Shown piece after piece: positions 1 to 20,242 of a stretch of 64,000 bases of DNA. Every line of letters starts with the position of its first letter. Position 1 is the first letter of the stretch. Made by a program: the position numbers and the translations under genes. This DNA is from Actinoallomurus spadix (GTDB lineage: Bacteria; Actinomycetota; Actinomycetes; Streptosporangiales; Streptosporangiaceae). The stretch spans positions 124,001 through 188,000 of the forward strand of contig NZ_JAMXMX010000007.1 in assembly GCF_024055725.1 (NCBI RefSeq). Reading direction: 5' to 3'. Below the pieces are notes generated by a model. The model did not search any database. It worked only from the letters and a program-made list of their open reading frames with translations, and was not told the DNA's origin.

Positions 1-1451
1 AAGCCCAGGCCGCCCACAGCAGTCGTTCGCAGGTCGAGGCCTGGACCTCCGGTTATGCCCGGCAGGCGTGGTGCGTCGACTTTCTCGTCGCCCTGCTCGC
101 GGGCCTGTTCGCCTTCGTCGCGCGGTTCCGCTACCCGACCTTCGGCGACCCGTGGAGCACTCCGTACATCGGGCTGAGCCTGTTCCTGCCCTTCCTGTGG
201 ACCGGTGTGCTCGGCATGGGCCGCGCGTACGAGAAGCGGCTCTTCGGCGTCGGCTCCGACGAGTTCCGCCGGATCATCCAGGCCGGCTTCTCCCTGACGG
301 CGACCGTGGCGATCCTCGCGTACGCCACCAAGGTCGACGTGGCGCGCGGCTACGTCATCGTGGCGCTGCCCCTCACCACGGGACTCGACCTGGTCGGGCG
401 GTACCAGCTGCGCAAGCGGCTGCACCGGCGGCGCAAGGCCGGCGAGTGCATGCGCCGGGTCGTGGCGGCCGGGCACCGTGCGGCAGTGGCCGACCTGGTG
501 CGGCAGCTGCGCCGCGAGCCCCAGCACGGCATGGAGGTCGTCGCGGCCTGCCTGCCGCCGATGCTCGCCGCGGGCGACGACGCGGTCAGCGAGATCGAGG
601 GTGTAAGGGTCGCGGGCGACTTCGCCCGGATCGCCGGAACCGTCGAGGCGGTGCACGCCGACACCGTCGCCGTGCTCGCCTGCCCCGAACTGGACGGCGT
701 TGCGCTGCGCCGCCTCGCCTGGCAGCTGGAGAAGGACGACGTCGACCTCGTCGTCGCGCCGGCGCTCATGGAGGTCGCCGGTCCGCGCACGTCGATCCGC
801 CCGGTCGCCGGGCTGCCGCTGCTGCACGTCGAGCACCCCGAGCTGAGCGGCGCCCGCCGGCTCGCCAAGAACGCGTTCGACCGGACCGTCGCGGCGGCGG
901 CGCTGATGGTCCTGTGGCCACTTCTGGCCGCCATCGTGATCGCCATCCGGCTGGAGAGCTCCGGCCCCGCGCTGTTCCGCCAGACCCGGGTCGGCCAGGA
1001 CGGTCGCGAGTTCACGGTGCTGAAGTTCCGGACGATGGTCGTGGACGCCGAGCGGCGCAAGGCCGAGCTCCTGCAGCTCAATGAGCACGACGGCGTCCTG
1101 TTCAAGATCAAGAACGATCCGCGGGTCACCCGGATCGGAGGCTGGCTGCGGCGCTACTCCCTGGATGAACTGCCCCAGTTGTTCAACGTGCTGTGGGGCG
1201 ACATGTCGTTGGTCGGGCCCCGCCCGCCGCTGCCGGAGGAGGTCGCGCAGTACGGTGATGACGTGCGCCGCCGCCTCGTCGTACGACCGGGCATGACCGG
1301 TCTGTGGCAGGTGAGCGGACGGGCGGACCTGACCTGGGAGGAATCCGTGCGCCTGGATCTGCGTTACGTCGAGAACTGGTCCCTGACCCTCGACCTGCAG
1401 ATCTTGTGGAAGACCTGGGCCGCCGTCCTGCACGGTTCCGGTGCCTACTGA
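1..1451 (+). CDS. Polyprenyl glycosylphosphotransferase, 5'-truncated by the window
   Basis: The reading frame is open from base 3, so the true start lies outside the window; at least 482 residues are visible. It begins with hydrophobic membrane segments (about residues 23-40, 58-73, 95-125), then a soluble CoA-binding-like middle, then another membrane helix and a C-terminal bacterial sugar transferase domain. That domain shows the family blocks FRQTRVGQDGREF, LKFRTM, DELPQLFNVL, SLVGPRPPLP and RPGMTGLWQVSGR. The family (WbaP/CpsE/WcaJ) transfers a sugar-1-phosphate from a UDP-sugar to undecaprenyl phosphate at the inner face of the membrane, the first step of repeat-unit assembly. Its place at the head of a locus with flippase, polymerase and glycosyltransferases fits that role. 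The sugar cannot be predicted from sequence. Confidence 0.93.
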   Translation, partial: AQAAHSSRSQVEAWTSGYARQAWCVDFLVALLAGLFAFVARFRYPTFGDPWSTPYIGLSLFLPFLWTGVLGMGRAYEKRLFGVGSDEFRRIIQAGFSLTATVAILAYATKVDVARGYVIVALPLTTGLDLVGRYQLRKRLHRRRKAGECMRRVVAAGHRAAVADLVRQLRREPQHGMEVVAACLPPMLAAGDDAVSEIEGVRVAGDFARIAGTVEAVHADTVAVLACPELDGVALRRLAWQLEKDDVDLVVAPALMEVAGPRTSIRPVAGLPLLHVEHPELSGARRLAKNAFDRTVAAAALMVLWPLLAAIVIAIRLESSGPALFRQTRVGQDGREFTVLKFRTMVVDAERRKAELLQLNEHDGVLFKIKNDPRVTRIGGWLRRYSLDELPQLFNVLWGDMSLVGPRPPLPEEVAQYGDDVRRRLVVRPGMTGLWQVSGRADLTWEESVRLDLRYVENWSLTLDLQILWKTWAAVLHGSGAY

Positions 1452-1468
1452 CGTGTAGAGAGAAGTAC

Positions 1469-2239
1469 GTGATCCACGACGACCACGCCCTCGCCAGGGA
1501 TCTTGCGACCGAGGCGGGAGCGCTCCTGCTCCGCCTGCGCGCCGACTCCGGCTTCGCCGACGTACGAACACTGCGGGACACCGGCGATCGGGAGGCACAC
1601 CTGTGCCTGACCGAGGCGCTCGCCCGGCAGCGTCCCGGTGACGCGGTCCTCAGTGAGGAGGGCAAGGACGACCTCGGCCGCCTCGACGCCGACCGCGTAT
1701 GGATCATCGACCCGCTGGACGGCACGCACGAGTACGGCGAGGAGGGCCGGGCCGACTGGGCCGTCCACGTCGCGCTCTGGGAGCGCGGCGCCGACGGCAC
1801 CGGACGGCTCACCGCCGGGGCCGTCGCACTGCCCGCCCAGGGACGCACCCTCTCCACCGCCGAGCCCCCGGCGCTGCCTCCGCTGCCCGACCCGTCGCGG
1901 ATCCGGATGACCGTGAGCCGCAGCCGCCCCCCGGCGTTCCTCGACCGGCTCGTCGAGGAGGTCGAGCAGGACGTGCGGATCATGCCGATCGGATCGGCCG
2001 GCGCGAAGGTCGCCGCGGTGCTCCTCGGCGACATCGACGCCTACGTCCACGCGGGCGGTCAGTACGAATGGGACTCCGCGGCGCCGGTCGCGGTGGCCCT
2101 CGCCGCGGGCGCCCACGCCTCCCGCATCGACGGGTCACCCCTGACCTACAACCATGAGAACACCCTGCTGCCGGATATCCTGGTTTGCCACCCGGATTTG
2201 GCGCCAACGCTGCTCGCCGGAATCCGGGCGGTCTCGTAA
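1469..2239 (+). CDS. cysQ: CysQ-type 3'(2'),5'-bisphosphate nucleotidase (inositol monophosphatase family)
   Basis: A 256-residue protein starting at GTG 1469 behind an AGAGAAG ribosome site, 17 nt after the glycosylphosphotransferase stop. Metal-binding blocks of the lithium-sensitive phosphatase superfamily are visible: VLSEEGKDD, WIIDPLDGTHEYG and, near the C terminus, EWDSAAPVAVALAAGA. CysQ enzymes hydrolyse 3'-phosphoadenosine 5'-phosphate (PAP), the by-product of PAPS-dependent sulfotransfer, to AMP. An inositol-phosphatase activity cannot be excluded by sequence. The adjoining cysD and cysN and a sulfotransferase 10 kb away favour PAP removal. It is probably co-transcribed with cysD, 22 nt downstream. 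Confidence 0.85.
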   Translation: MIHDDHALARDLATEAGALLLRLRADSGFADVRTLRDTGDREAHLCLTEALARQRPGDAVLSEEGKDDLGRLDADRVWIIDPLDGTHEYGEEGRADWAVHVALWERGADGTGRLTAGAVALPAQGRTLSTAEPPALPPLPDPSRIRMTVSRSRPPAFLDRLVEEVEQDVRIMPIGSAGAKVAAVLLGDIDAYVHAGGQYEWDSAAPVAVALAAGAHASRIDGSPLTYNHENTLLPDILVCHPDLAPTLLAGIRAVS

Positions 2240-2261
2240 CCGACCCCGGGAGCGGCTCCAC

Positions 2262-3191
2262 ATGCAGCGCAGTACCGCGGACACCCGTGACTACCGGACA
2301 TCTCAGCTCGGTGTCCTGGAATCCGAATCGATCCACATCATCCGCGAGGTCGCGGCCGAGTTCGAACGACCCGTCCTGCTCTTCTCCGGCGGCAAGGACA
2401 GCATCGTCATGCTGCGCCTCGCCGAGAAGGCCTTCTGGCCGGCGCCGGTTCCGTTCCCGGTCATGCACGTCGACACGGGACACAACTTCCCGGAGGTCAT
2501 CGAGTACCGCGACCGCCGGGTCGCCGAGCTCGGCGTCCGCCTCGTCGTCGCGTCCGTGCAGGAGTCCATCGACAAGGGACGCGTGGTCGAGGAGACGGGC
2601 CGGCGGGCCAGCCGGAACCGCCTGCAGACCACCACGCTGCTCGACGCGATCGAGGAGCACCGGTTCGACGCCGCGTTCGGCGGTGCCCGGCGCGACGAGG
2701 AGAAGGCCCGCGCGAAGGAGCGCGTCGTGTCCTTCCGCGACGACTTCGGCCAGTGGGACCCGAAGAACCAGCGGCCCGAGCTGTGGAACCTCTACAACAC
2801 CCGCATCCGCCAGGGCGAGCACGTGCGGGTCTTCCCCCTGTCGAACTGGACCGAGCTCGACATCTGGGACTACCTGCGGCTGGAGGGCCTGGAAATTCCC
2901 TCCATCTACTTCGCGCACACCCGCACGGTCTTCGAACGCGACGGCATGCTGCTCGCCGACAGCCCGTACTCCAACCGGGGTGACGACGAGCCGGCGTTCG
3001 AGGCGATGGTCCGCTACCGCACGGTCGGCGACATGAGCTGCACGGGCGCCGTCGAGTCGACCGCGACCGGCCTGGACGAGGTCATCGCCGAGATCGCTGC
3101 CACGCGGATCACCGAGCGCGGTCAGACCCGCGCCGACGACCGCACCAGCGAGGCCGCCATGGAGGACCGCAAGCGGGAGGGCTACTTTTAA
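2262..3191 (+). CDS. cysD: Sulfate adenylyltransferase subunit 2 (CysD)
   Basis: A 309-residue ATP pyrophosphatase-type subunit, close to the usual 300 residues. The PP-loop FSGGKDS is at about residues 41-47, followed by HVDTGHNFPE, GGARRDEEKARAKERV, and the C-terminal region SCTGAVES through RKREGYF that is typical of CysD. With CysN it makes adenosine 5'-phosphosulfate (APS) from ATP and sulfate in the cytoplasm. ATG 2262 is chosen because the longer in-frame extension runs into cysQ. The stop TAA shares one base with the cysN ATG (TAATG), which suggests translational coupling and equal dosage. No cysH or sulfite reductase gene adjoins it, so the pair may serve sulfation rather than assimilation. 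Confidence 0.95.
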   Translation: MQRSTADTRDYRTSQLGVLESESIHIIREVAAEFERPVLLFSGGKDSIVMLRLAEKAFWPAPVPFPVMHVDTGHNFPEVIEYRDRRVAELGVRLVVASVQESIDKGRVVEETGRRASRNRLQTTTLLDAIEEHRFDAAFGGARRDEEKARAKERVVSFRDDFGQWDPKNQRPELWNLYNTRIRQGEHVRVFPLSNWTELDIWDYLRLEGLEIPSIYFAHTRTVFERDGMLLADSPYSNRGDDEPAFEAMVRYRTVGDMSCTGAVESTATGLDEVIAEIAATRITERGQTRADDRTSEAAMEDRKREGYF

Positions 3192-4453
3192 TGGACATCT
3201 TGCGGCTCGCGACCGCGGGCTCGGTCGACGACGGCAAGTCCACCCTCATCGGGCGCCTGCTGTACGACTCAAAGTCGATCTTCGAGGACCAGCTCGAGGC
3301 GGTCGAGCGCACCAGCCGTGACCGGGGCGAGGACTACACCAACCTCGCGCTGCTCACCGACGGCCTGCGCGCCGAGCGGGAGCAGGGCATCACGATCGAC
3401 GTGGCCTACCGCTACTTCGCCACGCCCCGCCGGAAATTCATCATCGCCGACACCCCCGGGCACATCCAGTACACCCGGAACATGGTGACCGGCGCCTCGA
3501 CCGCGGACCTGGCGATCGTCCTGATCGACGCGCGCAAGGGCATCCTGGAGCAGTCCCGCCGGCACGCGTTCCTGACGACGCTGCTGCGGGTGCCGCACCT
3601 CGTGCTCGCGGTCAACAAGATGGACCTGGTCGACTACGACGAGGCGACGTTCGAGCGGATCAAGGACGAGTTCACGTCCTTCGCGGCGAAGCTGTCGGTC
3701 GGTGACCTGACGTTCATCCCGATCTCGGCACTGCACGGCGACAACGTCGTCGAGCGGTCGGCGAACATGGCGTGGTACGACGGCCCGTCGCTGCTGCACC
3801 ACCTGGAGAACGTCCACATCGCCTCCGACCGCAACCTCATCGACGTGCGGTTCCCGGTGCAGTACGTCATCCGGCCGCACAAGTCCACCGACCCGGAGCT
3901 GCACGACTACCGCGGCTACGCCGGCCAGGTCGCGGGCGGCGTGCTCAAGCCCGGCGACGAGGTCATGCACCTGCCGTCCGGGCTGACCACGCGGATCAAG
4001 CGGATCGACACCGCCGACGGCCCGGTGGACGAGGCGTTCCCGCCGATGTCGGTCACCCTCCTGCTGGAGGACGACATCGACATCTCCCGGGGCGACATGA
4101 TCTGCCGGCCGCACAACCGGCCTCAGGTCACCCAGGACGTCGACGCGATGGTGTGCTGGATGTCCGACGAGCGGCCGCTCGTGCCGCGCGGCAAGCTGGT
4201 CATCAAGCACACGACCCGCACCGCGCGCGTCATGGTCAAGGAGCTGCAGTACCGCCTCGACGTCAACACGCTGCACCGGCACGAGGACGCCGAGCGCCTG
4301 GACCTCAACGAGATCGGGCGGGTGCGGCTGCGCGTCACCCAGCCGCTGTTCGCCGACGACTACTCCCGCAACCGGGCCACCGGCGGCTTCATCCTGATCG
4401 ACGAGGCCACCAACGCGACGGTCGGCGCCGGAATGATCATGGAGAACCGCTAG
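3191..4453 (+). CDS. cysN: Sulfate adenylyltransferase subunit 1, GTPase (CysN)
   Basis: A 420-residue translation-factor-like GTPase. The P-loop GSVDDGKST is at residues 10-18, the G3 box DTPGHIQ near residue 87 and NKMD near residue 142, followed by EF-Tu-like beta-barrel domains. GTP hydrolysis by CysN drives the unfavourable formation of APS by CysD. There is no C-terminal APS kinase domain, so this is CysN and not a CysNC fusion; an APS kinase is encoded 21 kb downstream at 25731-27287. The start overlaps the cysD stop by one base. The gene ends just before a strong perfect hairpin, closing the cysQ-cysD-cysN unit. Confidence 0.96.
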   Translation: MDILRLATAGSVDDGKSTLIGRLLYDSKSIFEDQLEAVERTSRDRGEDYTNLALLTDGLRAEREQGITIDVAYRYFATPRRKFIIADTPGHIQYTRNMVTGASTADLAIVLIDARKGILEQSRRHAFLTTLLRVPHLVLAVNKMDLVDYDEATFERIKDEFTSFAAKLSVGDLTFIPISALHGDNVVERSANMAWYDGPSLLHHLENVHIASDRNLIDVRFPVQYVIRPHKSTDPELHDYRGYAGQVAGGVLKPGDEVMHLPSGLTTRIKRIDTADGPVDEAFPPMSVTLLLEDDIDISRGDMICRPHNRPQVTQDVDAMVCWMSDERPLVPRGKLVIKHTTRTARVMVKELQYRLDVNTLHRHEDAERLDLNEIGRVRLRVTQPLFADDYSRNRATGGFILIDEATNATVGAGMIMENR

Positions 4454-4460
4454 TCCTTCA

Positions 4461-4512: not shown

Positions 4513-4983
4513 TCAGGACCGCTCGGGCGGGAAGCCGCCGGTCGCGATCGGCCCCCACTCCTCGATGTGGACGCGGATCAGCGACTTGTCCTGCCGCCGC
4601 ATCGCCTCGCGGTACTCATCCCAGTCGGGGTGCTCGCCGGCGATGCAGCGGTAGTACTCCACCAGCCCGTCCAGCGCCTCGGGCATGTCCAGCACCTCGG
4701 CGCGCCCGTCGACCTGGACGTACGGGCCGTCCCAGTCGTCGGACAGGACGCAGATCGACACCCGTTCGTCCCGGCGCGCGTTGCGGGCCTTGGCCCGCGC
4801 GGGGTACGTCGAGACCACGATCCGCCCGTCGGCGTCCACGCCGCACGTCACGGGGGACATCTGCGGCCGGCCGCTCGCACGCACGGTGGACAGCAGCCCG
4901 TGGTGCCGAGGCCGGAGGAACTCCAGCAACTGCTCTCGGCCGACACGCTCGGCGGTCGCGATCCTCGGAGCCACTGACATCAC
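4513..4983 (-). CDS. PPOX-class F420-dependent oxidoreductase family protein
   Basis: A 156-residue split beta-barrel flavin/deazaflavin-binding protein. Blocks such as GLLSTVRASGRPQMSPV, GRIVVSTYPARAKARNARRDERV, YVQVDGRAEV and GEHPDWDEYREAM are typical of the FDOR-B (F420-dependent PPOX-like) families abundant in actinobacteria. The substrate is unknown. Two adjacent ATG codons (4983 and 4980) both follow a GGAGAGG site; either could be the start. A shorter paralogue lies at 51079-51489 and shares the GEHPDWD(D/E)YR(A/E)AM block. It sits inside the polysaccharide locus but has no obvious link to it. Confidence 0.85.
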   Translation of the reverse strand: MMSVAPRIATAERVGREQLLEFLRPRHHGLLSTVRASGRPQMSPVTCGVDADGRIVVSTYPARAKARNARRDERVSICVLSDDWDGPYVQVDGRAEVLDMPEALDGLVEYYRCIAGEHPDWDEYREAMRRQDKSLIRVHIEEWGPIATGGFPPERS

Positions 4984-5019
4984 CTCTCCGTACGCTGCTC
5001 GTCGTTACCGGCAGCACTC

Positions 5020-5025
5020 TAAACT
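5020..5025 (+). promoter_or_regulatory. Probable -10 element for a leaderless glycosyltransferase mRNA
   Basis: TAAACT lies 7 nt before ATG 5033, which has no Shine-Dalgarno sequence. That spacing would put the transcription start at or next to the ATG. No convincing -35 is visible. Confidence 0.4.
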
Positions 5026-5032
5026 GTCGCGA

Positions 5033-5929
5033 ATGCCGCCCTCTGTGGGAGTGGTCATCCCCACTCACAACCGTCCCCACCTGCTGCGCAAGGCGATCGA
5101 GTCGGTGCTGGCCCAGGACTACGACGGACGGGTGCGCGTCGTCGTCGTGTACGACCGGGCCGAGCCCGACGTGAGCCTGGCGGGCGACCGGGTCGAGGTG
5201 CTCGCCAACACCCGTACGCCCGGGCTCCCCGGCAGCCGCAACACCGGCATCCTCGCGCTCGACACCGACCTGGTGGCCTCCTGCGACGACGACGACGTGT
5301 GGTTGCCCGGAAAGCTCGCCGCGCAGGTCGCCGCGCTGGAGGCCGAGCCCGGCGCGGTCCTCGCCAGCTGCGGCATCCTGGTGGACTTCGACGGCCGGGA
5401 GATGCCCCGCCTGGCCGGCGCGGACCGGGTCCACTTCGAGGACCTGGTGGGCGACCGCGTGGTGAGCGTGCACTCCTCGACGTACGTCGCGCGGCGCGAG
5501 GCGCTGATCGAGATCGGCATGGTCGACGAGACGATCCCCGGCGGCCAGGGCGAGGACTGGGACCTGGCGCTGCGTGCGGCCCGGCGGCATCCCATCGTCA
5601 ACGTCGACCGGCCGTACGTCCGCGTGCTGTTCGGCCAGACCTCCTACTACGCGCAGGCCTGGGAGACGAAGGTCGAGGCCCTGCGGTGGTTCCTCGACCG
5701 GTACCCGGAGATCGGCGGGTCCCCGGCCGCGGCCGGGCGCGTGTACGGGCAGATCGCGTTCGGCTGCGCCACCATCGGCCGGCGCCGGGAGGCCGTGCGC
5801 TGGGCGGGCCGGGCGATGCGGGCGAACTGGCGGGAGCGGCGGGTGCCGTTCGCGCTCGCGGTGGCCTGCGGCGTCGTCTCCGGCAAGCGGGTCCTGCTGA
5901 CCCTGCACGCCCGCGGCCGCGGCATCTGA
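5033..5929 (+). CDS. Family 2 glycosyltransferase
   Basis: A 298-residue GT-A fold protein. The N-terminal nucleotide-sugar site VGVVIPTHNRPHLLRKAIES is followed by NTRTPGLPGSRNTGI and the metal-binding acidic run SCDDDDVW (a DXD-type motif), then GGQGEDWDLALRA, the ED/WD catalytic block of GT2 enzymes. The C-terminal 80 residues are helical and basic. It probably adds one sugar of the polyprenyl-linked repeat unit at the cytoplasmic membrane face; donor and acceptor cannot be inferred. ATG 5033 is preferred because the in-frame upstream part lies antisense to the flavoprotein gene and a -10-like TAAACT stands 7 nt upstream. Confidence 0.88.
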   Translation: MPPSVGVVIPTHNRPHLLRKAIESVLAQDYDGRVRVVVVYDRAEPDVSLAGDRVEVLANTRTPGLPGSRNTGILALDTDLVASCDDDDVWLPGKLAAQVAALEAEPGAVLASCGILVDFDGREMPRLAGADRVHFEDLVGDRVVSVHSSTYVARREALIEIGMVDETIPGGQGEDWDLALRAARRHPIVNVDRPYVRVLFGQTSYYAQAWETKVEALRWFLDRYPEIGGSPAAAGRVYGQIAFGCATIGRRREAVRWAGRAMRANWRERRVPFALAVACGVVSGKRVLLTLHARGRGI

Positions 5930-6012: not shown

Positions 6013-7941
6013 TCAGGTCGTCCAGGTGACCTTGGGGTTCGCGGCCGTCTCCGCCGCGCTGTTGTCGGCCGGTGCCGACCGCGAGACCTCGGTCGTGTCG
6101 TTGCGCGACGGGGCCTCGGCCGGGCGGGGCGCCTCGGCCGGGCGCGCGGTCTCGGCCGGCCGTGACGGGTCGACGGACCGGGCCAGATCGGAGCGGGCCT
6201 GACCGGTGGAACGCGCCGGCGCCGACGACCGGGCGGACTGCTCACCGGACGCGGGAGGAAGCGGCGCGGGCCGGTGCCGCCGCCCCTTCGGGGGAGGGGC
6301 GCCCTCGTCGGACACGGCCACCATGTCGAGAACCGTCGGCGCGTCCTCGATGGCCTGGTACTTGCTCTGCGCCGTCGCGGGGGAAGGCGTCGGCGCCGTC
6401 GTCGTCGACGGGGAGGTGACCGGCCGGTCGCGCAGCGGAGGCGGGGTCCGGGCCGGTACGGGCCGGGGCGGCGGCGCGGACACCTTGGCGTCCTGCACGG
6501 GCAGGACGACCGCGCCCATCACCGCGGCGCCCATCCGGTCGATGCGCCGGACGCCGTCGCGCACCTGGGCGTAGCGCGCGAGGGGGACCTCGACCACCAT
6601 GAGCGCGGCGTCGGCCAGGTCCGCCAGCGCCTGGGCGTCCGCGCCCAGCTCGGTGGACGGAGCCTCGATGACCGTGAACCGGTACTTGTCCCGCAGCGAG
6701 CCGATCAGACTGGTCATCTGCTCGCGCTGCAGCAGTTCGGCGGCCAGCTCGCTGTTCGCGCCGACCGTGATGGCGCTCAGCGTCGGCGCCCCGTGGTTCT
6801 TCCGGACCACCTCCTGCGGCTCGGCCCAGCCGAGCAGCACCTCCGACAGGCCCGGCCCCTCCGGGAGGCCGAGGAGCTCACCGGCCACCGAGGAGCCCAG
6901 GTCCGCGCAGACCAGCAGCACGTCCGAGCCCGTACGAGCGAGCGCGGCCGCGAGGTTCGCGGCGACGAAGCTGCCGCCGCGGCCCGGCGCCGCACCGGTG
7001 ACGAGGAGGACGTGGTTGCCGTGACCCAGCGTCGCGGTGAGCACGTGGGACAGCTCGTGGAAGCTCTGCCCGGTACGGCTGCGCGCCGGCAGCAGGCCCA
7101 GGCCCTCCCGGCCGCGCTTGGCCGGGATGTCCACCAGGACCGGCAGGTCGAGGACCCGCTCGATGTCCTGCGCGGTGCGCACCCGCTTGTCCGTACGGTC
7201 CAGGAGGATGGCCAGGATCACGCCGAGCAGCAGGCCGCCGACGAACCCACTCGGCAGATACCTCGTCAGGCTCGGGTCGGACGGCGAGGCGGGCAGCCGG
7301 GCGTCCGTGATGATCTGCCCGGGGTTGACGTTGGCCGCCGTCACCCGCAGGTCGGACGCCTTGTTGTTGAGGGCCTGCATCTGGGCGACGACCAGGTTCT
7401 TCTGCACCTTGTCGGTCATCGTCCGCAGCTGCTTCGACAGCGAGTTGATCTGCCGTTCGAGGGCGGCCATCTGGGTCGTCAGGACACTGGTGGCGCTGTC
7501 GCGACGGTCGTCGAGGTAGGCCTGGGCGAAGGCGTGCGCGCGGTCGCGCGCGCCCTGGGCGGTCGAGGCGTTGACGGTGATGTAGAGGACCGTCGAGTTG
7601 TTCGGGACGTTCACCGCCACGGACGAGCTCAGCGCGCTGGGGGTCTCCTTCGTGTGCAGGTCCCGCGCCACCCGCTCGGCCACGTCGTACGAGCGGACGC
7701 GCTGCGCCTCGGTCTGCAGGTTGATGTCCTGCTGCTTACCGGACTGGCTGCCGCTGTCGAGGTTCGTCGGCGTGGCGTTGACGACGGTGAACGCCGAGTA
7801 CGTCTTGGGCATGACGACGACGAGCATCGCTGCCACCGCGACGCCGAGCGCGGCCGCGGCGACGACCACCCACCAGCGGCGTTTGAGCATTGCGAGGTAG
7901 TCCGCGAGCTCGCGGGAGCCCCCCGTGGCCGTGGCGTCCAT
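6013..7941 (-). CDS. Wzz/BY-kinase-like polysaccharide co-polymerase with degenerate kinase site
   Basis: A 642-residue protein. An N-terminal Wzz domain (SRELADYLAMLKRRWW then a transmembrane helix near residues 24-43), a coiled-coil periplasmic part, a second helix (GFVGGLLLGVILAILL) and a cytoplasmic P-loop ATPase-like domain give the layout of actinobacterial BY-kinases that control chain length. The Walker A region reads GAAPGRGGS (residues 316-324): the invariant lysine of GKS/T is glycine. The Walker B-like strand is FTVIEAPST instead of hhhDxP, and the Pro/Ala-rich C-terminal tail lacks a tyrosine cluster. Walker A' LLVCADLGSS keeps its aspartate. I infer loss of autokinase activity with the chain-length role kept. 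ATG 7941 follows GAAGGGGC; a TATGTT -10-like box lies at 7985-7990. Confidence 0.85.
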   Translation of the reverse strand: MDATATGGSRELADYLAMLKRRWWVVVAAAALGVAVAAMLVVVMPKTYSAFTVVNATPTNLDSGSQSGKQQDINLQTEAQRVRSYDVAERVARDLHTKETPSALSSSVAVNVPNNSTVLYITVNASTAQGARDRAHAFAQAYLDDRRDSATSVLTTQMAALERQINSLSKQLRTMTDKVQKNLVVAQMQALNNKASDLRVTAANVNPGQIITDARLPASPSDPSLTRYLPSGFVGGLLLGVILAILLDRTDKRVRTAQDIERVLDLPVLVDIPAKRGREGLGLLPARSRTGQSFHELSHVLTATLGHGNHVLLVTGAAPGRGGSFVAANLAAALARTGSDVLLVCADLGSSVAGELLGLPEGPGLSEVLLGWAEPQEVVRKNHGAPTLSAITVGANSELAAELLQREQMTSLIGSLRDKYRFTVIEAPSTELGADAQALADLADAALMVVEVPLARYAQVRDGVRRIDRMGAAVMGAVVLPVQDAKVSAPPPRPVPARTPPPLRDRPVTSPSTTTAPTPSPATAQSKYQAIEDAPTVLDMVAVSDEGAPPPKGRRHRPAPLPPASGEQSARSSAPARSTGQARSDLARSVDPSRPAETARPAEAPRPAEAPSRNDTTEVSRSAPADNSAAETAANPKVTWTT

Positions 7942-8043
7942 CTGACTGCGTGGCCCCTTCGCCGAAGGTCTATGAGACCGCCATAACATACCTTGCCGGG
8001 CTTGGCCGATCCGTGTGCTTGCGCGGGCTCCCCGGCGCGCTCC

Positions 8044-9293: not shown

Positions 9294-9384
9294 CTGTCGG
9301 TGTCGAACGGGTACGAAGGGGCGGTTCCGGCGGCCGGGCGTGGCCCGTCGAACGCGTCTCCCGGCCTGCGGGCCTGACCGCCTC

Positions 9385-13625: not shown

Positions 13626-15701
13626 ATGGCATTCCGTCTGCCTGCGCGCAAGACCCCCTTGGTCGCCGGTGCGGCCGCCCTGGTCGCCGCCGGCGTCATC
13701 TTCGTTCCCAACTGGGCCAGCGCGGGCGCGCCGGACGGCAAGTCCTCCGGCGCCGCCGCGCTGTCCTGCTGGGCCGTCAAGCAGGACTACCCGAAGAGCG
13801 CCACCGGCCTGTACTGGCTGAAGACGCCTCGGATGAGCAGCGCCCAGCAGTTCTACTGCGACATGACCACCGATGGCGGAGGATGGATCCTCGTAGGCCG
13901 CGGTCGCGAGAGCTGGAACTTCCACTACGCCGGTCAGAGCAGCACGTCCAAGGTGCGCAGCACTCCAACCGGCACCGCCGCCTTCGCACCGGCGACGGTC
14001 CCCGGCGACACCATCAACGGGCTGTTCAACGGCGGCTCGATCGACGAGGTCCGGCTGCACCGCGCCAAGAACGCCGACGGCACCTCATGGCAGGACGTCT
14101 CGCTGAAGTTCAAGGACCTGGCCGACTGGTCCTGGACCTTCGACGGCGGGCTCCCGCTGAGCTCGGCGTCCTTCGACGGCGCGACCTACAGCGGCGGGTA
14201 CACCGACGCGATCAAGAAGTCCGACTACCTGCACCCGTACAACGGCCTGTCGACCGTCAAGACCAAGGACGACTCGTACAAGAAGGGCTTCGCGTACACG
14301 ACCAGCGTGTCGGGCGCGTCGAGCAGCGCGAGCAGCTACCTCTGGAAGGCGACCTCCAGCGGCCTGCCCACCCCCTTCACGCAGGTCTGGATCCGCCCCA
14401 AGATCACGACCTCGACCGGCGGGCCAGCCCCGGCGACACCGAAACTGCTCAGCGGCAAGACCTCCTCCAGCCCCTGGGGCGTGACGGGCGTCGTCAGCGG
14501 CCTCAGCGGTGAGGACCACATCGAGGTGCACGCCCTCGGCGTCGTCGGAAGCACCCTCTACGTCGGCGGCGAATTCAAGTACGTGCAGAAGGGCGCCAAC
14601 CCGGCCTCCGGCGAGAAGGTCCAGCAGTCCTACCTCGCGGCGTTCGACACGAGCACCGGCGAGTGGAAGACCGGGTTCCGCCCGAAGCTCGACGGCAGGG
14701 TCTGGGCGATCAAGGGGACCAGCGACAAGCTGTTCGTCTCCGGCGACTTCACCAACGTGAACGGCGTCGCGAACACGGCGGGTGTCGCCGCGCTCGACCT
14801 CAAGACCGGCGCGCCGCTGTCCACCTGGAAGGCCAGCCTGATCCGCGGCGGCAAGGACGCCAACGGCAACCCCAACATCCCGCGCGGCCGGGCCATGGAC
14901 GTCCAGGACGGCTGGCTGTACATCGGTGGCACGTTCGACCACATCAAGGGCGGCACGACGATCACCAAGTCGCCGTTCTGGGTCGGCGGCGCCGCGCGCG
15001 TCAAGGTGACGGACGGCACCCCGGACACCACCTGGAACCCGTTCTTCGACGCGGGCGTGTACTCGGTCGACGCCAGCTCGAAGGGCGACCGCGTCTACTT
15101 CGGCGGCCGCATGAAGCACATGGGCAAGCAGAAGGACGTGTCGGTCAACGACTTCGCGATCGTCAGCACGGCGGCGCCGGGCGGCCACATCTCCGGGCTG
15201 GGCGACACCAAGTGGATCCCCAGCACGGACAACCCGGACAAGCCGTACCGCAACACGATCCTCGAGGTCGGCGACCGCGTCTGGATGGGCGGCTCCGAGC
15301 ACGACCTGCAGGTCTACGACCGGGACTTCGACAAGAAGATCGGCGGCAACCTCGCCCGCTCCGGCGGTGACTTCCAGTCGACCGTCGAGATCAACGGTGT
15401 CCTGTACGCCGGGTCGCACGGCTTCGACTTCGACTACACCGACGGCTGGACGTACCCGGACCCGAAGACCGGCGGCTACTCCAACGTGCACCGCCTCAAC
15501 ATGGTGGGCGCGTGGGACGCCAAGACCGGCAAGTACCTGCCGAATTGGAACCCCTCCTTCGCGTCGCGGGCCGGCAACGGCGTGTGGGCGCTCGTGAAGG
15601 ACGGCAACGGGTGCATGTGGGCCGGTGGCGACCTGAAGAGCGGCTCCTGGAACGGCTCCGCCTACCAGTGGCTCGGTGGCTTCGGCCGGTTCTGCCCCTG
15701 A
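13626..15701 (+). CDS. Secreted fibrinogen-related-domain protein with propeller-like repeats
   Basis: A 691-residue secreted protein. A signal peptide (about residues 1-36, cleavage near NWASA-GA) is followed by a fibrinogen-C-like domain: YWLKTPRMSSAQQFYCDM, TTDGGGWILVGRGRESWNF and a C-terminal WIRPK around residue 255. The rest (about 280-691) repeats LYVGGEF, LFVSGDF, LYIGGTF, VYFGGRM and MWAGGDL motifs, like the delta-60/kelch-type repeats found in large bacterial surface proteins. Fibrinogen-related domains often bind acetylated or charged sugars, so binding to the adjacent polysaccharide is possible but unproven. GGGAGAG precedes the ATG. It has its own strong promoter and a terminator at 15741-15775. 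Confidence 0.85.
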   Translation: MAFRLPARKTPLVAGAAALVAAGVIFVPNWASAGAPDGKSSGAAALSCWAVKQDYPKSATGLYWLKTPRMSSAQQFYCDMTTDGGGWILVGRGRESWNFHYAGQSSTSKVRSTPTGTAAFAPATVPGDTINGLFNGGSIDEVRLHRAKNADGTSWQDVSLKFKDLADWSWTFDGGLPLSSASFDGATYSGGYTDAIKKSDYLHPYNGLSTVKTKDDSYKKGFAYTTSVSGASSSASSYLWKATSSGLPTPFTQVWIRPKITTSTGGPAPATPKLLSGKTSSSPWGVTGVVSGLSGEDHIEVHALGVVGSTLYVGGEFKYVQKGANPASGEKVQQSYLAAFDTSTGEWKTGFRPKLDGRVWAIKGTSDKLFVSGDFTNVNGVANTAGVAALDLKTGAPLSTWKASLIRGGKDANGNPNIPRGRAMDVQDGWLYIGGTFDHIKGGTTITKSPFWVGGAARVKVTDGTPDTTWNPFFDAGVYSVDASSKGDRVYFGGRMKHMGKQKDVSVNDFAIVSTAAPGGHISGLGDTKWIPSTDNPDKPYRNTILEVGDRVWMGGSEHDLQVYDRDFDKKIGGNLARSGGDFQSTVEINGVLYAGSHGFDFDYTDGWTYPDPKTGGYSNVHRLNMVGAWDAKTGKYLPNWNPSFASRAGNGVWALVKDGNGCMWAGGDLKSGSWNGSAYQWLGGFGRFCP

Positions 15702-15811: not shown

Positions 15812-16906
15812 ATGAGGATCCCCAGAGTGCGCGGGCGCGCCGCCCTGTCGGCGGTGGCGCTGGTCGGCGCGGGCGCCATGCTGTCGGCCTGCGGCTCCGC
15901 GGCCGGCACCGACGGCAAGGGCGGGAAGACCTCCGCGAACGCACGGGCGGCCACCCTCGCGGAGGGCAGGTCGGCCGCGGCGGGCGGGAACTGCGGCGCC
16001 GACGCCAAGCTCATGCCCAAGTGCGGCGCCTACTGGGGCATCTACTCCGTGCAGGGCAGGTCGCTCACCTCGGCCGTGACCGGCATCGAGGGGAAAGTCG
16101 GCCGGCGCTTCGACATCGTCCTGCGCTTCCATGACTGGTCCAACGCGGCCGGGCCGGGCCGTTTCCCGGACGCCTCCGAACGCGCGCTCGGCCGCGACCG
16201 GCTGCTGTTCTTCGCCTGGGAGAGCAAGGTCTACCAGCGGCAGCAGAGCTACAAGTGGCGCGACATCGCGGCCGGCGCCTACGACCGCTCCGTGCTCGAG
16301 CCGGTGGCCGGGCGCGTGAAGGCGTACGGGAAGAAGGTCTTCATGTCCTTCGACCCGGAGATGGACCGCCACCAGAACAAGGGCGAGATGAAGGGCACCG
16401 CGGCCGAGTACGTCGCGGCGGCCCGGCACGTCCACGACGTCTTCCAGAAGGCCGGCGTCACGAACGTCGTGTGGGTCTGGGTCGTCACCGGCACGATGAG
16501 CGGCGAGAACCCCCAGCGGATGCTCGACTCCTACCCCGGTGACGCGTACGCCGACTGGGTGGGCTGGGACCCGTACAACTTCTACAAGTGCCACAACGGG
16601 CCGTGGCACACGTTCGACGAGAAGGTCGGGCCGACGTACCGCTTCCTCCAGCAGCACGGGTTCGCCAAGAAGCCGTTCATGCTCCCGGAGTACGGCACGC
16701 AGTACGACCCGGCCGATCCGAAGCGCTCGATCCAGTGGTACCGCGCGATCCCCGGCGTGCTGCGGAGCAAGTACCCCAACATCGCAGGGCTGATCCGCTT
16801 CGACGCGGGGCCGGGCTGCAACCTGAAGGTCGACAATGGACCGGGCATGCTGGGCTCGTACGCCGCGGCCGGCCGCGACTCCTACCTCAACACCGCCGGT
16901 CGCTGA
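15812..16906 (+). CDS. GH26-like glycoside hydrolase lipoprotein
   Basis: A 364-residue predicted lipoprotein: the signal peptide ends in the lipobox LSAC, putting the lipidated Cys at residue 27. The body resembles clan GH-A beta-mannanase/GH26 proteins. MSFDPEMDR carries the probable acid/base glutamate and LPEYGT the probable nucleophile glutamate, with WVWVVTG, DWVGWDPYNFYKC and GLIRFDAGPG between and after. It would act outside the membrane, perhaps trimming or processing the exported polymer; the substrate is not predictable. It follows the hairpin at 15741-15775 by 36 nt and faces the convergent pssE gene 7 bp away. Confidence 0.8.
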   Translation: MRIPRVRGRAALSAVALVGAGAMLSACGSAAGTDGKGGKTSANARAATLAEGRSAAAGGNCGADAKLMPKCGAYWGIYSVQGRSLTSAVTGIEGKVGRRFDIVLRFHDWSNAAGPGRFPDASERALGRDRLLFFAWESKVYQRQQSYKWRDIAAGAYDRSVLEPVAGRVKAYGKKVFMSFDPEMDRHQNKGEMKGTAAEYVAAARHVHDVFQKAGVTNVVWVWVVTGTMSGENPQRMLDSYPGDAYADWVGWDPYNFYKCHNGPWHTFDEKVGPTYRFLQQHGFAKKPFMLPEYGTQYDPADPKRSIQWYRAIPGVLRSKYPNIAGLIRFDAGPGCNLKVDNGPGMLGSYAAAGRDSYLNTAGR

Positions 16907-16913
16907 GGCGGGT

Positions 16914-17462
16914 TCACCGCGCCGGCCGGGAGCGCCGGCGGCGCCGGGGTTCGCCGACGAGCTCGTCCACCAGCCGCCCGAACCGCGCGACGGCGGGCGC
17001 CGTCTCGTCGGCCTCGTCCGGCACGGCGTACTTCGCCGGGTCGGCCAGGGCGCGGTTCAGGTGGGCGTGCAGGCTCTCGGCGGTCTCGGCCAGGGCCACC
17101 TTGCCGAAGGTCGCGACGTGCCGGGAGAACCGCACCTGATGGTCGTCGACGACCTCGTCCAGCCGCGCGATCCGGGGAACGACGATCGGCAGCCGGCCCG
17201 CCTGCCGGCTCTCGGTGATCGAGCCGGGGCCGCCCTGGCAGACGACGGCGGTCGCCTGCCGGAACAGCTCCTGCATGTCGGCGTGGGGCAGGAACTCGTG
17301 GCACTCGGCGCCCGCGGGCGGGCCGGCCGGGCCGTGCTGCACGACGCAGCGGACGTGGCCGTTCGCCGCGAGCCACTGCTCCATCCACCCCATCAACCGG
17401 TCGAACCGGTGATGGTCGGTGCCCACGGTCACGAAGACCAGCGGTCTGTCCGGGCCGGTCAA
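16914..17462 (-). CDS. PssE/Cps14G-like glycosyltransferase subunit (GT28 C-terminal domain)
   Basis: A 182-residue protein that begins VFVTVGTDHHRFDRLMGWME and carries HEFLPHADMQELFRQATAVVCQGGPGSITES, the nucleotide-sugar-binding half of GT28 enzymes (Alg13/PssE/EpsF type). It is expected to pair with the membrane-associated PssD/Alg14-like subunit encoded just upstream, forming a split glycosyltransferase at the cytoplasmic membrane face. The start is taken as TTG 17462, whose TTGA overlaps the pssD stop by 4 nt; no other in-frame start lies close. The C terminus is Arg-rich (RRRRRSRPAR). Confidence 0.85.
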   Translation of the reverse strand: MTGPDRPLVFVTVGTDHHRFDRLMGWMEQWLAANGHVRCVVQHGPAGPPAGAECHEFLPHADMQELFRQATAVVCQGGPGSITESRQAGRLPIVVPRIARLDEVVDDHQVRFSRHVATFGKVALAETAESLHAHLNRALADPAKYAVPDEADETAPAVARFGRLVDELVGEPRRRRRSRPAR

Positions 17463-17908
17463 AGCAACTGCCCCACGACGGTGCCCTTCGGGTAGCGCGC
17501 CCGCTGTTCCTCCCACTGCAGGAGGAACAGGTCCGCGATCGGATAACACAGGCGGCCGGTCAGCGTGCCCGAGTCGATGCGGTCGTACACCTCGAGGTAG
17601 ACCGTCCGCCGGCGCAGCAGCTTCCCCAGGAGGAAGAAGGGCACGGCGACGCCCGCCCCCGAGCTGACGATCACATCCGGCCGGTAACGCGGGACCAGCC
17701 GCAGCGCGAGCCACAGGTTGCGCAGCAGATTGGGGATGTTCCGGGTCGTCGGATGGTAGGCCCAGGTCACCTGCTCGTCCGCGAGGAGAGAGCACGCGTC
17801 GGCCTTCTCGAACGTCACCCACATCCGCTCGTGCTCGGACCACCAGGGCCGCAGCCGGTACAGCTGGGTCAGGTGCCCGCCGGTGGAGCAGACCAGGAGG
17901 ACCTTCAC
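17459..17908 (-). CDS. PssD/Cps14F-like glycosyltransferase subunit (Alg14 family)
   Basis: A 149-residue protein starting VKVLLVCSTGGHLTQLYRL, the Alg14/PssD/Cps14F signature, followed by a long amphipathic segment (NIPNLLRNLWLALRLVPRYRPDVIVSSGAGVAVPFF) that anchors this family to the membrane and recruits the catalytic partner. The GTG start at 17908 overlaps the upstream gene's TGA (GTGA) and is preceded by GGAGG; its own TGA overlaps the pssE start. The three minus-strand genes are therefore one translationally coupled operon. In Rhizobium and Streptococcus the pair adds a glucuronosyl or galactosyl residue; the donor here is unknown. Confidence 0.87.
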   Translation of the reverse strand: MKVLLVCSTGGHLTQLYRLRPWWSEHERMWVTFEKADACSLLADEQVTWAYHPTTRNIPNLLRNLWLALRLVPRYRPDVIVSSGAGVAVPFFLLGKLLRRRTVYLEVYDRIDSGTLTGRLCYPIADLFLLQWEEQRARYPKGTVVGQLL

Positions 17909-19206
17909 CGTTCCTCCAGGACCTCGAGCATGGCCGGATGGAGGGCGGGGTTCCATCCGCCGCCCAGCCGCTTGAGGTGGTAGGTCCGCATGAACATCTC
18001 CAGCAGGTAGAGCCGTCCGAGCAGTCGGCGATGGTCGGAGGGGAGCTCGGGAAGCTCGGTCCCGGCGGCGGCCCGTACGGCGGCGACCGCCTCGGCCAGC
18101 GGCCGGCCGCGCAGCACCAGCGCGTCCTGGAACCTCCAGTGCAGGTGGTCGAAGCCCGCCGGGACCTCCTCGGCGCTGTGCTCCCAGTCCCAGACGTACA
18201 GGTCCCCGGCGTACCGGCCCATGTTCCAGGGCACCCAGTCGCCGTGCCACCGGCCGACGCGCAGGGGAGTGTCGCCGTGCTCGCGTTCGAGCTCGTCCAA
18301 GTGCGCGGTGACGAGGGCCGCGAGACGCCGTTCGTCATCGTCGGCGGCCAGGACGGCGGCCTCCGCCCGCAGCGCCCGCCAGAACGCCGTGTCGGCCAGC
18401 TTCGTCGTACGGACGGCGAAGGGCCCCGGGAGGTTCGGAGGGCCCGGGAGGTCGGTCGGGGTCGGTTGGTCGGGGGAAAACAGCAGGCCGGTCGGGGTCG
18501 GTTGGTCGGGGGAACCCGCGTCGTGCGGGACACGGGGCGGCTCGGCCTCGCGGTAACGGCGGATTTTCGGCGGTAGCGGCGCGGTGACGGTGAGGTCGTA
18601 GTCGCGCCACGGGCCGTGGTGCAGCAGCTCCGGAACGCGGATGCCGGCCGCCGGCGTCGCGCTGACCGCGGCGATCGCGTCCGCCTCTCGCCGGGTCATC
18701 TCCCGGGTGGCGGGGTTCCAGCCGACCTTGGCGTAGCCAACGGGGGCGCCGTCGGCGCCGAAGAGCTGGAGCGTCGGCTTCGAGTTCGGATCGGGCGCGC
18801 GTACGCCCACCCCCAGCGCAGGGCGCGGCAGACCCAGCACGCGCCCGAGATGCGCGCTCAGCAGGTAGTCGCTCAGTTCGGCGTCCGGGAGTTTCTCGGG
18901 AACGCAGACGAGCAGCCGGTGGCGCAGCACGAGCGGCGCGATTCCGGTGCGGAAACCGGCGCCCAGGACCGTACGGGGGACGCGGAGGCGGGCCCAGCGC
19001 AGCCCGTTGTAGTGGGTGAGGCTGCCGGCGGCGACGGCCCGGCCGTCGAGCGGGACGAGGAAACGCGGCCGATCGGGGGAGGGCACCACGGCGTAGCGCT
19101 CGACCACCTGGTACCCCGGTGGGACCTCGCCCGACGTGACCCGGACCGGCCACCCTGAGGACTCCGGCTCGGGCAGCCATAGCCGTTCGACAAGTGCGCG
19201 GAGCAC
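17905..19206 (-). CDS. Aminoglycoside-phosphotransferase-fold protein in the polysaccharide operon
   Basis: A 433-residue protein. The C-terminal half has the APH/choline-kinase-like catalytic block GRWHGDWVPWNMG followed by LYVWDWEH (catalytic Asp and metal-binding Asp). The N-terminal 170 residues are not recognised, although YAKVGWN could contribute a nucleotide-binding lysine. A Pro-rich linker near residues 230-255 comes from a 36-bp-period repeat. Its GTG start follows AGGGGG and its stop overlaps pssD, so it is co-translated with the PssD/PssE pair. A small-molecule or sugar kinase acting on a polysaccharide precursor is plausible; drug resistance is less likely from context. Confidence 0.75.
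   Translation of the reverse strand: MLRALVERLWLPEPESSGWPVRVTSGEVPPGYQVVERYAVVPSPDRPRFLVPLDGRAVAAGSLTHYNGLRWARLRVPRTVLGAGFRTGIAPLVLRHRLLVCVPEKLPDAELSDYLLSAHLGRVLGLPRPALGVGVRAPDPNSKPTLQLFGADGAPVGYAKVGWNPATREMTRREADAIAAVSATPAAGIRVPELLHHGPWRDYDLTVTAPLPPKIRRYREAEPPRVPHDAGSPDQPTPTGLLFSPDQPTPTDLPGPPNLPGPFAVRTTKLADTAFWRALRAEAAVLAADDDERRLAALVTAHLDELEREHGDTPLRVGRWHGDWVPWNMGRYAGDLYVWDWEHSAEEVPAGFDHLHWRFQDALVLRGRPLAEAVAAVRAAAGTELPELPSDHRRLLGRLYLLEMFMRTYHLKRLGGGWNPALHPAMLEVLEER
18454..18514 (-). repeat. 25-bp perfect direct repeat, 36-bp period, in the APH-fold gene
   Basis: The same 25 bases occur at 18454-18478 and 18490-18514. The 36-bp period keeps frame and duplicates the peptide SPDQPTPT in the linker before the kinase-like domain, giving a Pro-rich spacer. 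Confidence 0.85.
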
Positions 19207-19369
19207 TGCGCCCCCTGGTGCCCTTGATCAGCCCGGATCCGTCCCGGTGACCGACTCCAACTTTCCCGGCACTTTACCGTAATCAGCCTGTCATCAGCGG
19301 ACGCGTCACCGCTTTTCCGGAACGTCGGTACGCTCGGTCACGCAGGCGGAACACGGTGAAGGGCGCGGG

Positions 19370-20242
19370 ATGGGCATGGGCGGCGGACCGCTGGTCGTGA
19401 TCGTGCTGTCGCACCGGAACCCGGGTCAGGTCGCCCGGCTCGTGGACCGCATCCGGACCGGCGTCGACACGGTCGCGGTCGTCCACCACGACCCGACCGG
19501 CGAGCCGCTCACGTTGCGCCCGTCATCGAACGTCGCGCTCGTCCCAGACGCGAGGCCCTGCCAGTGGGGGCGGCTCTCCCTGGTCGAGGCGCAGTGGCGG
19601 TCGCTGCGCTGGGTGGCGGCGAACATCCCGGAATTCTCCTGGGCGCTCCTCGTCTCGGGCCAGGACTACCCGATCCGGCCCATCACCGCGATCGAGAAGG
19701 AGCTCGCCGCCTCGCCGTACGACGCGTACCTCCGGCACTTCGCGGTGACCCCCGACCCGGCGGCGGACACCGACCCCTGGCAGGCGGTGACCCGCCGCCG
19801 CTACCTGCGCAAGCGGCGGCTGCCCGGCACCCACCGTTCGGTGCCGCTGCCGTTCGAGCGGCGGCACCCCTACCGGAACGGGGTGGGGCTGTACGTCGGC
19901 GACATGTGGTTCAACCTGTCCGCCGCGACCGTGCACGGCATGCTGGCCGACCCGCTGGCCGATCGCCTGCTGCGCTACCTGCGGTACGCGCCGATCCCGG
20001 ACGAGACCTTCATCTGCTCGATGGCCCTGAACGCCCGGCCCGCCCGCTCGGTCGCCAACGACAGCAGGCGGTTCATCCGGTGGGGCGCCGACGCGAGCCA
20101 CCCCGACCTGATCACCGCGGCGCACCTGGACGAACTGCGGGCCAGTGACGCGTTCTTCGCGCGCAAGGTCGACGCCTCCGCGCACCCCGAGGTCCCCGAC
20201 CTGCTCGACCAGCTCGCCGCCGACCGCGGGCCGGTCGCCTGA
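19370..20242 (+). CDS. GT14-family (core-2/I-branching-like) glycosyltransferase
   Basis: A 290-residue protein. It has the GT14 blocks VVIVLSHRNPGQVARLV near the N terminus, ALLVSGQDYPIRP (counterpart of the family's LSGxDxPL motif) at about residue 97, MWFNLS and the PDETFICS block. Family members are beta-1,6-xylosyl/N-acetylglucosaminyl transferases that make branches; bacterial versions occur in capsule loci. It probably adds a branch or repeat-unit sugar here. ATG 19370 follows GAAGGG, with a TACGCT -10-like box at 19329-19334. ATG 19376 is an alternative start. It is divergent from the APH-fold/PssDE operon and is the last gene clearly belonging to the polysaccharide locus. Confidence 0.82.
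   Translation: MGMGGGPLVVIVLSHRNPGQVARLVDRIRTGVDTVAVVHHDPTGEPLTLRPSSNVALVPDARPCQWGRLSLVEAQWRSLRWVAANIPEFSWALLVSGQDYPIRPITAIEKELAASPYDAYLRHFAVTPDPAADTDPWQAVTRRRYLRKRRLPGTHRSVPLPFERRHPYRNGVGLYVGDMWFNLSAATVHGMLADPLADRLLRYLRYAPIPDETFICSMALNARPARSVANDSRRFIRWGADASHPDLITAAHLDELRASDAFFARKVDASAHPEVPDLLDQLAADRGPVA

Follow-up and report, generated by a model that had tools for sequence, protein, structure and literature searches.

A putative sulfated exopolysaccharide locus beside the only ATP sulfurylase genes found in Actinoallomurus spadix

Does a polysaccharide locus that contains genes for sulfate activation make a sulfated polymer, and are those activation genes its own? The question is raised by a stretch of 64,000 nucleotides from Actinoallomurus spadix (assembly GCF_024055725.1, contig NZ_JAMXMX010000007.1, positions 124,001 to 188,000, or C69:124001-188000 in our numbering), referred to here as the window. 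Its first 20,242 positions carry cysQ, cysD and cysN together with the gene of a sulfotransferase expected to use 3'-phosphoadenosine 5'-phosphosulfate (PAPS). A previous reading of the sequence alone proposed a sulfated exopolysaccharide with built-in sulfate activation. A sulfated exopolysaccharide is still the best reading of the locus, with a probability of about 0.76 for the full pathway set out below, and co-occurrence of the relevant genes within the family is strong; the activation genes, however, appear to be shared rather than dedicated. Sulfated sugar polymers are well known in animals and algae, and to our knowledge their chemistry has barely been explored in soil actinomycetes.

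Sulfate transfer, sulfate activation and the APS kinase

Genes were identified by Pfam, NCBIfam and PDB sequence searches of the open reading frames (ORFs) of the window. The components of a Wzx/Wzy-dependent locus were found together: a WbaP-like initiating glycosylphosphotransferase (1..1451, plus strand, truncated by the window start; Bac_transf, 233 bits), a Wzz-type chain-length protein with a Wzc-like kinase domain (6013..7989, minus strand; PF02706 above cut-off, NCBIfam kinase-family matches all under their cut-offs), a Wzy-type polymerase (9340..10815, plus strand; PF04932, Wzy_C, 34.4 bits, cut-off 31.7) and a Wzx-type flippase with a start near 10812 (10812..12506, plus strand; PF01943, 24.4 bits, just under the cut-off of 28.2). 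The PAPS sulfotransferase, of the heparan-sulfate 3-O/N-sulfotransferase type, lies at 12508..13407 on the plus strand (PF00685, 52.6 bits, cut-off 22; PF13469 above cut-off). A single base separates the flippase TGA (12504-12506) from its GTG start (12508), as expected from the statement of the sequence-only reading that it directly follows the flippase gene; the description of a Wzx/Wzy locus with cysQ-cysD-cysN and a PAPS sulfotransferase was borne out by all three kinds of comparison.

The AlphaFold model of the sulfotransferase has a mean pLDDT (predicted local distance difference test) of 89.7. Its best fold matches are the bacterial structure 3rnl and human heparan 3-O-sulfotransferases (3-OST), with E about 1e-13 and template modelling (TM) scores of 0.62-0.69 by query length, and both were matched by sequence too in the PDB search. 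Other classes are more distant, with E of 2.3e-6 for the curacin-pathway domain and about 2e-4 to 2e-3 for tyrosyl, mycobacterial and cytosolic enzymes. The loop residues G45, R48, G50 and S53, and likewise E116, R145 and S153, are the same in all 27 of the 27 sulfotransferases compared; following work on 3-OST and NDST, we take them to be PAPS-binding and catalytic. The PAPS 5' loop, the RDP...S 3' motif, the catalytic Glu and the modelled fold are all those expected of a heparan-type carbohydrate sulfotransferase. In a relative (G018, locus L054, 13665-16718), three consecutive sulfotransferase genes were seen near cysQDN.

The activation genes are encoded on the plus strand at 1469..2239 (CysQ-like), 2262..3191 (CysD, ATP sulfurylase subunit) and 3191..4453 (CysN, a GTPase subunit of 420 aa without a fused APS kinase). 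CysD matches TIGR02039 with 452 bits (cut-off 397) and CysN matches TIGR02034 with 578 bits (cut-off 336). The CysQ-like protein belongs to PF00459 and matches the 3'-phosphoadenosine 5'-phosphate (PAP) phosphatase CysQ of PDB 5djf over residues 5-252 (E 9.8e-77); its TIGR01331 score of 80 bits is under the NCBIfam cut-off of 229. The starts of CysQ and CysD are probably at 1469 and 2262 rather than at those of the longest ORFs.

The window copy of cysD is the only one found in the source genome (8.02 Mb, completeness 98.3%), and no second ATP sulfurylase was found there. The possibility that cysDN is a dedicated duplicate set was ruled out, since no second cysDN was found and since CysD, present in 36 of the 37 genomes of a family set (own genome included; counts ignore common descent), is single-copy in 33 of the 36. 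The sequence-only reading was right that the window has no cysH or sulfite reductase: genome searches place both, side by side, on contig C55, where 18 kb around them gave no CysQ, CysD, CysN or APS kinase match. The adenosine 5'-phosphosulfate (APS) made from the window genes would therefore be common to cysteine synthesis and sulfation. The same reading had named a cysH/sir set elsewhere that depends on this cysDN as a finding that would count against it. Such a set exists, and the phrase "built-in sulfate activation" is misleading, because cysDN is the only ATP sulfurylase found and must be drawn on by the genes on C55.

In the source genome, CysH shows the CC and CxxC iron-sulfur ligands that mark APS reductases; its best solved match is the reductase 7lhr. 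The CysH search gave matches in 55 genomes and loci for 30; APS-reductase motifs are present in 32 of 32 distinct sequences including its own, 30 by the strict pattern and two with GCATC. Cysteine synthesis should thus need APS and not PAPS, which leaves sulfation as the clear role of the lone APS kinase. It is the branch after APS, formed by the sole APS kinase, the sulfotransferase and CysQ, that looks specific to sulfation.

No other APS kinase was found in the genome; this one was previously placed at 25731-27287. The kinase is indeed there, but the real ORF is 25731..27347 on the minus strand, with an additional N-terminal domain resembling ATP sulfurylase. Among PDB entries it is nearest to 3cr8, a two-domain APS kinase from Thiobacillus denitrificans. 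At the positions of the sulfurylase active-site motifs QxRNPxH and GRDHA, whose letters were compared with 2gks, the window protein has LATRGPLH and FFLEPAAG. Both motifs (QTRNPxH and GRDHA) are lost in 41 of 42 distinct aligned sequences, the window's included, and the kinase P-loop and DGD are kept in all 42. These 42 come from 47 rows and cover hits of at least 350 bits and 450 residues, setting aside the broken G003 frame (L085), ten reduced proteins and the hits of the genus Actinoplanes beyond those compared. The only sequence with both motifs, L108, belongs to a genome (G046) with a CysH match and no CysD match, and serves as an internal control: a genome that gave no CysD has a fused sulfurylase of intact appearance. 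In ten family genomes the sulfurylase-like domain is partly gone, from about residue 267 of the query (231 in G022) to 353-356. The protein, with its sulfurylase-like domain free of active-site motifs and its intact P-loop and DGD, is of the T. denitrificans type, and is probably an APS kinase with a dead sulfurylase half that serves a structural role. As a supplier of APS it was rejected because the Aquifex-type sulfurylase motifs are missing. Two side observations concern its relatives: the G003 frame contains one TAG, either a sequencing error or a sign of a decayed gene, and G023 has two further cysD genes (C5:458034 and C11:18918; 52 and 51% identity), each about 2 kb from an APS kinase, which may mark further sulfation clusters.

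Linkage in relatives and exchange of cassettes

A close sulfotransferase is present in 27 of the family genomes. In 20 of these 27 it lies within 20 kb of cysD, and in seven the two are on different contigs; the APS kinase shows the same split relative to the sulfotransferase, with 20 of 27 genomes at 20 kb or less and seven on another contig. Before counting, we dropped sulfotransferase rows with E above 1e-40 (including G000:C66, G020 and G026), CysD rows with E above 1e-20 or representing second fragments of one gene (for example G008:C558, G032:C12, G036 and G047), and APS-kinase rows that were N-terminal or split, together with the weak rows of G003:C12 and G021:C191. In none of 35 family genomes is cysD near cysH, and the five with both on one contig have them 1.5-4.5 Mb apart. 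Of the more distant genomes, 17 have both genes, and four of these 17 place CysD no more than 20 kb from CysH; in two of the four (G050 and G057) sir, cysH, APS kinase, cysD and cysN are clustered. Where the sulfotransferase is present, WbaP adjoins cysQ in 24 of the 26 family genomes judged, versus one of seven where it is absent (Fisher p 1.7e-4, ignoring descent); the count sets aside G026 for its contig edge and G004 for its lack of a CysD match, as well as G027 and G036.

For a wider view, the best 80 of 571 relatives of the window sulfotransferase were examined as named loci; the query biases this sample to its own clade, and its counts are not population frequencies. The cassette is recognizable in most of them, with matches to Wzx in 76, Wzy in 72, GT2 in 71, the kinase of aminoglycoside phosphotransferase (APH) type described below in 70, and Wzz in 58. 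It occurs in Micromonospora, Salinispora, Nocardioides, Arthrobacter and others, and linkage of cysDN with a sulfotransferase, of a second type defined below, recurs in Arthrobacter and in Ornithinicoccus/Serinicoccus loci. The association of the sulfotransferase with cysDN, whose absence from relatives was one of the findings that the sequence-only reading had named as refuting it, is strong inside the family and rarer outside.

A quick tree of 63 sulfotransferase rows, with support from the Shimodaira-Hasegawa-like approximate likelihood ratio test (SH-aLRT) only, is split into two groups by one branch (SH-aLRT 100). When loci are labelled as linked to cysDN from flanks of up to 10 kb (L267 from further reading, L155 left out), the tree needs eight changes of label, five of them forced by starred branches. 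The seven Actinoallomurus genomes with cysD fall on both sides, G000, G001 and G007 in the second group and G002, G003, G005 and G006 in the first, all with the sulfotransferase beside cysQDN. Their CysD proteins are 92-99% identical to the window's, and the distance from cysD to the APS kinase is 21-29 kb in six of the seven, G001 having the kinase on a different contig. When the two sorts of Actinoallomurus cassette are compared, in contrast, identity is 39-41% for the sulfotransferase and 31-32% for Wzx. Genome G011 has a first-group cassette in the slot and a second-group cassette away from cysDN, and Planomonospora has the same arrangement. Differing cassettes beside a nearly constant cysDN suggest an exchange of cassettes throughout which the sulfate activation genes kept a sulfotransferase as neighbour.

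The wps-1 cluster of Actinoplanes missouriensis

The closest functional evidence comes from wps-1 of A. missouriensis, which Tezuka and Ohnishi deleted gene by gene in 2026 (PMC13390465; this and the other papers are cited from the parts available). Sporangia were squashed in mutants without WpsH (the heparan-type sulfotransferase), WpsI (kinase-like), Wzx, Wzy or Wzz, and loss of a second sulfotransferase, WpsB, gave normal-looking sporangia that released fewer spores; mutants of the region showed no macroscopic difference on agar (PMC13390465). The product was predicted to be a sulfated polysaccharide, without chemistry in the available text. Loss of the neighbouring AMIS_7390 unexpectedly caused severe defects, and the authors tie this gene to APS for sulfur amino acids (PMC13390465).

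Locus L279 of our sample has the wps-1 gene order. The Pfam matches of its WecG-type protein (residues 64-241) and of its DUF4262 protein (residues 27-152) span exactly the ranges given for WpsC and WpsD (PMC13390465). The protein of L279 at the AMIS_7390 position shares 51% identity with the window APS kinase and has neither sulfurylase motif; it is the sole match in that genome. We read AMIS_7390, from this likeness in sequence, as a putative maker of PAPS for polymer sulfation and not of APS, which would explain the unexpected sporangium defect of its mutant.

The window and wps-1 have in common Wzx, Wzy, Wzz, GT2, a heparan-type sulfotransferase, a WpsI-type kinase, a GH26 protein and an adjoining two-domain APS kinase, the latter about 12 kb from the sulfotransferase in the window. 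They differ in that wps-1 has a second sulfotransferase and a WecG-type transferase, neither of which turned up in scans of the window's main ORFs. The window sulfotransferase and WpsH are on opposite sides of the deepest branch of the quick 63-row tree (SH-aLRT 100), and the idea that the window is simply wps-1 was rejected because its sulfotransferase falls outside the WpsH clade. No cysQDN match was found in 20 kb of L279. In genomes of the Actinoplanes group the order from APS kinase to Wzx is the same in seven of eight, the eighth contig ending after Wzz, and all eight carry a WbaP-cysQ-cysD-cysN module on a different contig from the APS kinase, with no cysH in the 14 kb read around it. 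Micromonospora lupini and Salinispora showed no WbaP next to cysQDN. Among the domains listed for wps-1 in the available text there is no initiating transferase of the WbaP kind (PMC13390465), so the remote WbaP-cysQDN module of the A. missouriensis relatives is a candidate that may supply both the first transferase and APS to wps-1.

These observations can be combined into a broader proposal, to which we give about even odds. In these spore formers the only sulfate activation genes would form the fixed walls, WbaP-cysQ-cysD-cysN on one side and the APS kinase with mfd on the other, of an exchangeable slot for sulfated-glycan cassettes to which a sulfotransferase keeps returning, much as capsule-type loci vary in their sugar genes. 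Where the walls have parted, of which the Actinoplanes group is an example, wps-1 would still receive its first transferase and PAPS in trans, from the remote WbaP-cysQDN and from the APS kinase with its dead sulfurylase, with AMIS_7390 serving sulfation of the sporangium polymer and not cysteine synthesis.

Proposed pathway, rival explanations and known systems

The gene identities, single copies, motifs and linkage described above are observations; from them we infer the following pathway. CysDN would convert sulfate and ATP to APS, which would then be split: the APS-type CysH and Sir encoded elsewhere would reduce one part for cysteine, and the two-domain APS kinase would commit another part to PAPS. 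WbaP, GT2, GT14 and PssDE would assemble a lipid-linked repeat unit, a sugar of which the sulfotransferase would sulfate on the cytoplasmic side before export by the flippase, with CysQ removing PAP and Wzy and Wzz polymerising the units. By analogy with wps-1 of A. missouriensis, the polymer would most likely coat spores or sporulating hyphae. Actinoallomurus forms chains of spores and is not known to make sporangia, so what wps-1 does in A. missouriensis may not apply to it in every respect.

The locus has further genes, three of which (for the fibrinogen-like/propeller protein, the GH26-like lipoprotein and the APH-type kinase) the sequence-only reading did not name. GT2 (4685..5929, plus strand; PF00535) has its true start probably near 5040 and is 55% identical to the WpsA-position gene of L279. 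A PssE-like glycosyltransferase subunit (Alg13/GT28 C-terminal; 16914..17495, minus strand; PF04101) and a PssD-like (Alg14) subunit (17459..17900, minus strand; PF08660) both have approximate starts, and a GT14-like (Branch) glycosyltransferase is encoded at 19370..20242 (plus strand; PF02485). Two proteins without a Pfam match are putatively secreted, judging by their sequences: one of unassigned family (8044..9111, minus strand; counterpart in 7 of the 80 named loci) and one with fibrinogen-like and propeller parts (13626..15701, plus strand; 65 of 80). A GH26-like, mannanase-like lipoprotein (15812..16906, plus strand; PF02156, 19.4 bits, cut-off 20.2) matches the WpsE-position gene of L279 and is recurrent in these cassettes, with a match in 39 of the 80.

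The APH-type kinase (17905..19206, minus strand), a homologue of the WpsI-position gene, has the motifs HGDW...N and DWE, and its residues H321, D323, N328 and D340 are invariant in 26 of 26. Its fold resembles those of fructosamine-3-kinase and glucosamine kinase (E about 5e-5, TM-scores by query length 0.26-0.41). The counterparts in 70 of the 80 loci and the WpsI-position match suggest that a small-molecule or sugar kinase may belong to the pathway. Between the cassette and the APS kinase, a LuxR-type response regulator and a HisKA_3 histidine kinase (21730-23762, minus strand) are possible regulators.

Several observations weigh against a sulfated exopolysaccharide fed by these genes. Two of the seven family genomes with the sulfotransferase and cysD on different contigs, G009 and G021, seem to be genuinely without the link, judging by the 15 and 13 kb read. 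Nine of the 36 CysD-bearing family genomes are without this sulfotransferase, yet all nine have an APS kinase. In the eight of them that were read, cysQ-cysD-cysN stand together in every case, with no sulfotransferase beside them in 5-20 kb searched by one profile and one P-loop pattern; cysQDN thus looks like an older, general-purpose part. Outside the family, five of 23 genomes have the sulfotransferase, one within 20 kb of cysD, one at 42 kb and three on other contigs, and CysD is within the flanks of only six of the 80 named loci. PF13469 matches five genes in the source genome, so that other users of PAPS are possible and the locus need not be the sole one. When wps-1 was activated on day 3, AMIS_7390 was not (PMC13390465), and the literature searched yielded no polymer analysis for any actinomycete with this locus.

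Much of this evidence would also suit a housekeeping role, in which cysQDN is an assimilation set that borders a polysaccharide locus by chance, and the sulfotransferase acts on some other substrate or is marginal. The presence of a single ATP sulfurylase with sir-cysH elsewhere, the retention of cysQDN and APS kinase in relatives without the sulfotransferase, and the separation of most such cassettes from cysDN outside the family are all in its favour. Chance, however, does not explain why a sulfotransferase occupies the slot across the family despite exchange of the cassettes, why there is a separate linkage in Arthrobacter and Ornithinicoccus-type genomes, or why WbaP tracks the sulfotransferase, and we consider this explanation unlikely.

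It is still less probable that the sulfotransferase acts on a small lipid-linked or cell-wall glycan or a glycolipid instead of a secreted polymer. Mycobacterial PAPS does feed sulfolipids (PMC4373884), and neither the acceptor nor the sulfated position can be read from the sequence; but the fold is nearest to polysaccharide sulfotransferases and 3rnl and far from mycobacterial STF and the cytosolic enzymes, and both the one-base gap to the flippase and the recurrence of Wzx, Wzy and Wzz in the named loci point to a polymer. Least probable, and by our estimate very improbable, is a true bifunctional PAPS synthetase at 25731-27347 that would give a second source of APS independent of cysDN. Its domain order is that of the Aquifex enzyme 2gks and it matches NF004040 of NCBIfam with 461 bits, but under the cut-off of 669. 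The loss of the sulfurylase motifs in all aligned sequences except L108, from a genome where CysD was not found, and the partly missing domain in ten family genomes argue against it, as does the closest structure, 3cr8, reported to lack sulfurylase activity (cited in PMC13213808). A sulfated exopolysaccharide made with shared APS remains the reading that we prefer.

If so, the prediction of sulfated polymers now extends to a whole family, one whose sulfotransferase cassettes are physically linked to sulfate activation, and the enzyme that would commit sulfate to sulfation can be named, the two-domain APS kinase. The locus also yields an explanation, open to experiment, of why AMIS_7390 mutants have defective sporangia, and a genome signature for candidate producers of sulfated glycans: WbaP-cysQ-cysD-cysN, a heparan-type sulfotransferase and a two-domain APS kinase. 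The literature searched holds no paper joining sulfotransferase, exopolysaccharide and cysD in actinobacteria, and in the available text a sulfated actinomycete polysaccharide was predicted once, in 2026, without chemistry (PMC13390465). Sulfate activation genes in sulfated-capsule loci and a predicted sulfated actinomycete polymer are already known; new within that literature are the sharing of a single copy, the dead-sulfurylase kinase as the gate to sulfation, the exchangeable slot and the re-reading of AMIS_7390.

Among known systems, the capsule locus of Cobetia marina KMM 1449, with a reported sulfated capsule structure, has cysN/C, cysD, cysQ and sulfotransferases (PMC11766843), and the polysaccharide locus of Vibrio sp. 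KMM 8419, whose sulfated polymer structure is also reported, has cysC, cysN, cysD and sulfotransferases (PMC11641403). Both are Gram-negative capsules exported by ABC transporters, in contrast to the Wzx/Wzy locus of the window, and the Vibrio cys genes are second copies (PMC11641403), whereas the window's are the only copy found. The cyanobacterial synechan locus of Synechocystis, for a sulfated exopolysaccharide with sulfotransferases (PMC8205485), is likened here by description and not by genes, and Pontiella is another bacterial report of sulfated polymers known to us by description only (PMC7356697). An inactive sulfurylase-like domain fused to APS kinase is also found in Entamoeba histolytica (PMC13213808) and in T. 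denitrificans (3cr8). Unlike those, the window type is the sole APS kinase found in sulfotransferase-bearing actinomycetes, and its domain is partly missing in the ten family genomes. A parallel for the division of APS is the mycobacterial CysDN(C)/CysH/CysQ system, which also has a CysQ homologue and in which APS likewise goes partly to an APS reductase and partly to an APS kinase supplying sulfotransferases (PMC4373884). There the kinase is fused to CysN, whereas the window encodes it as a protein of its own with two domains, and its sulfate activation genes border a polysaccharide cassette.

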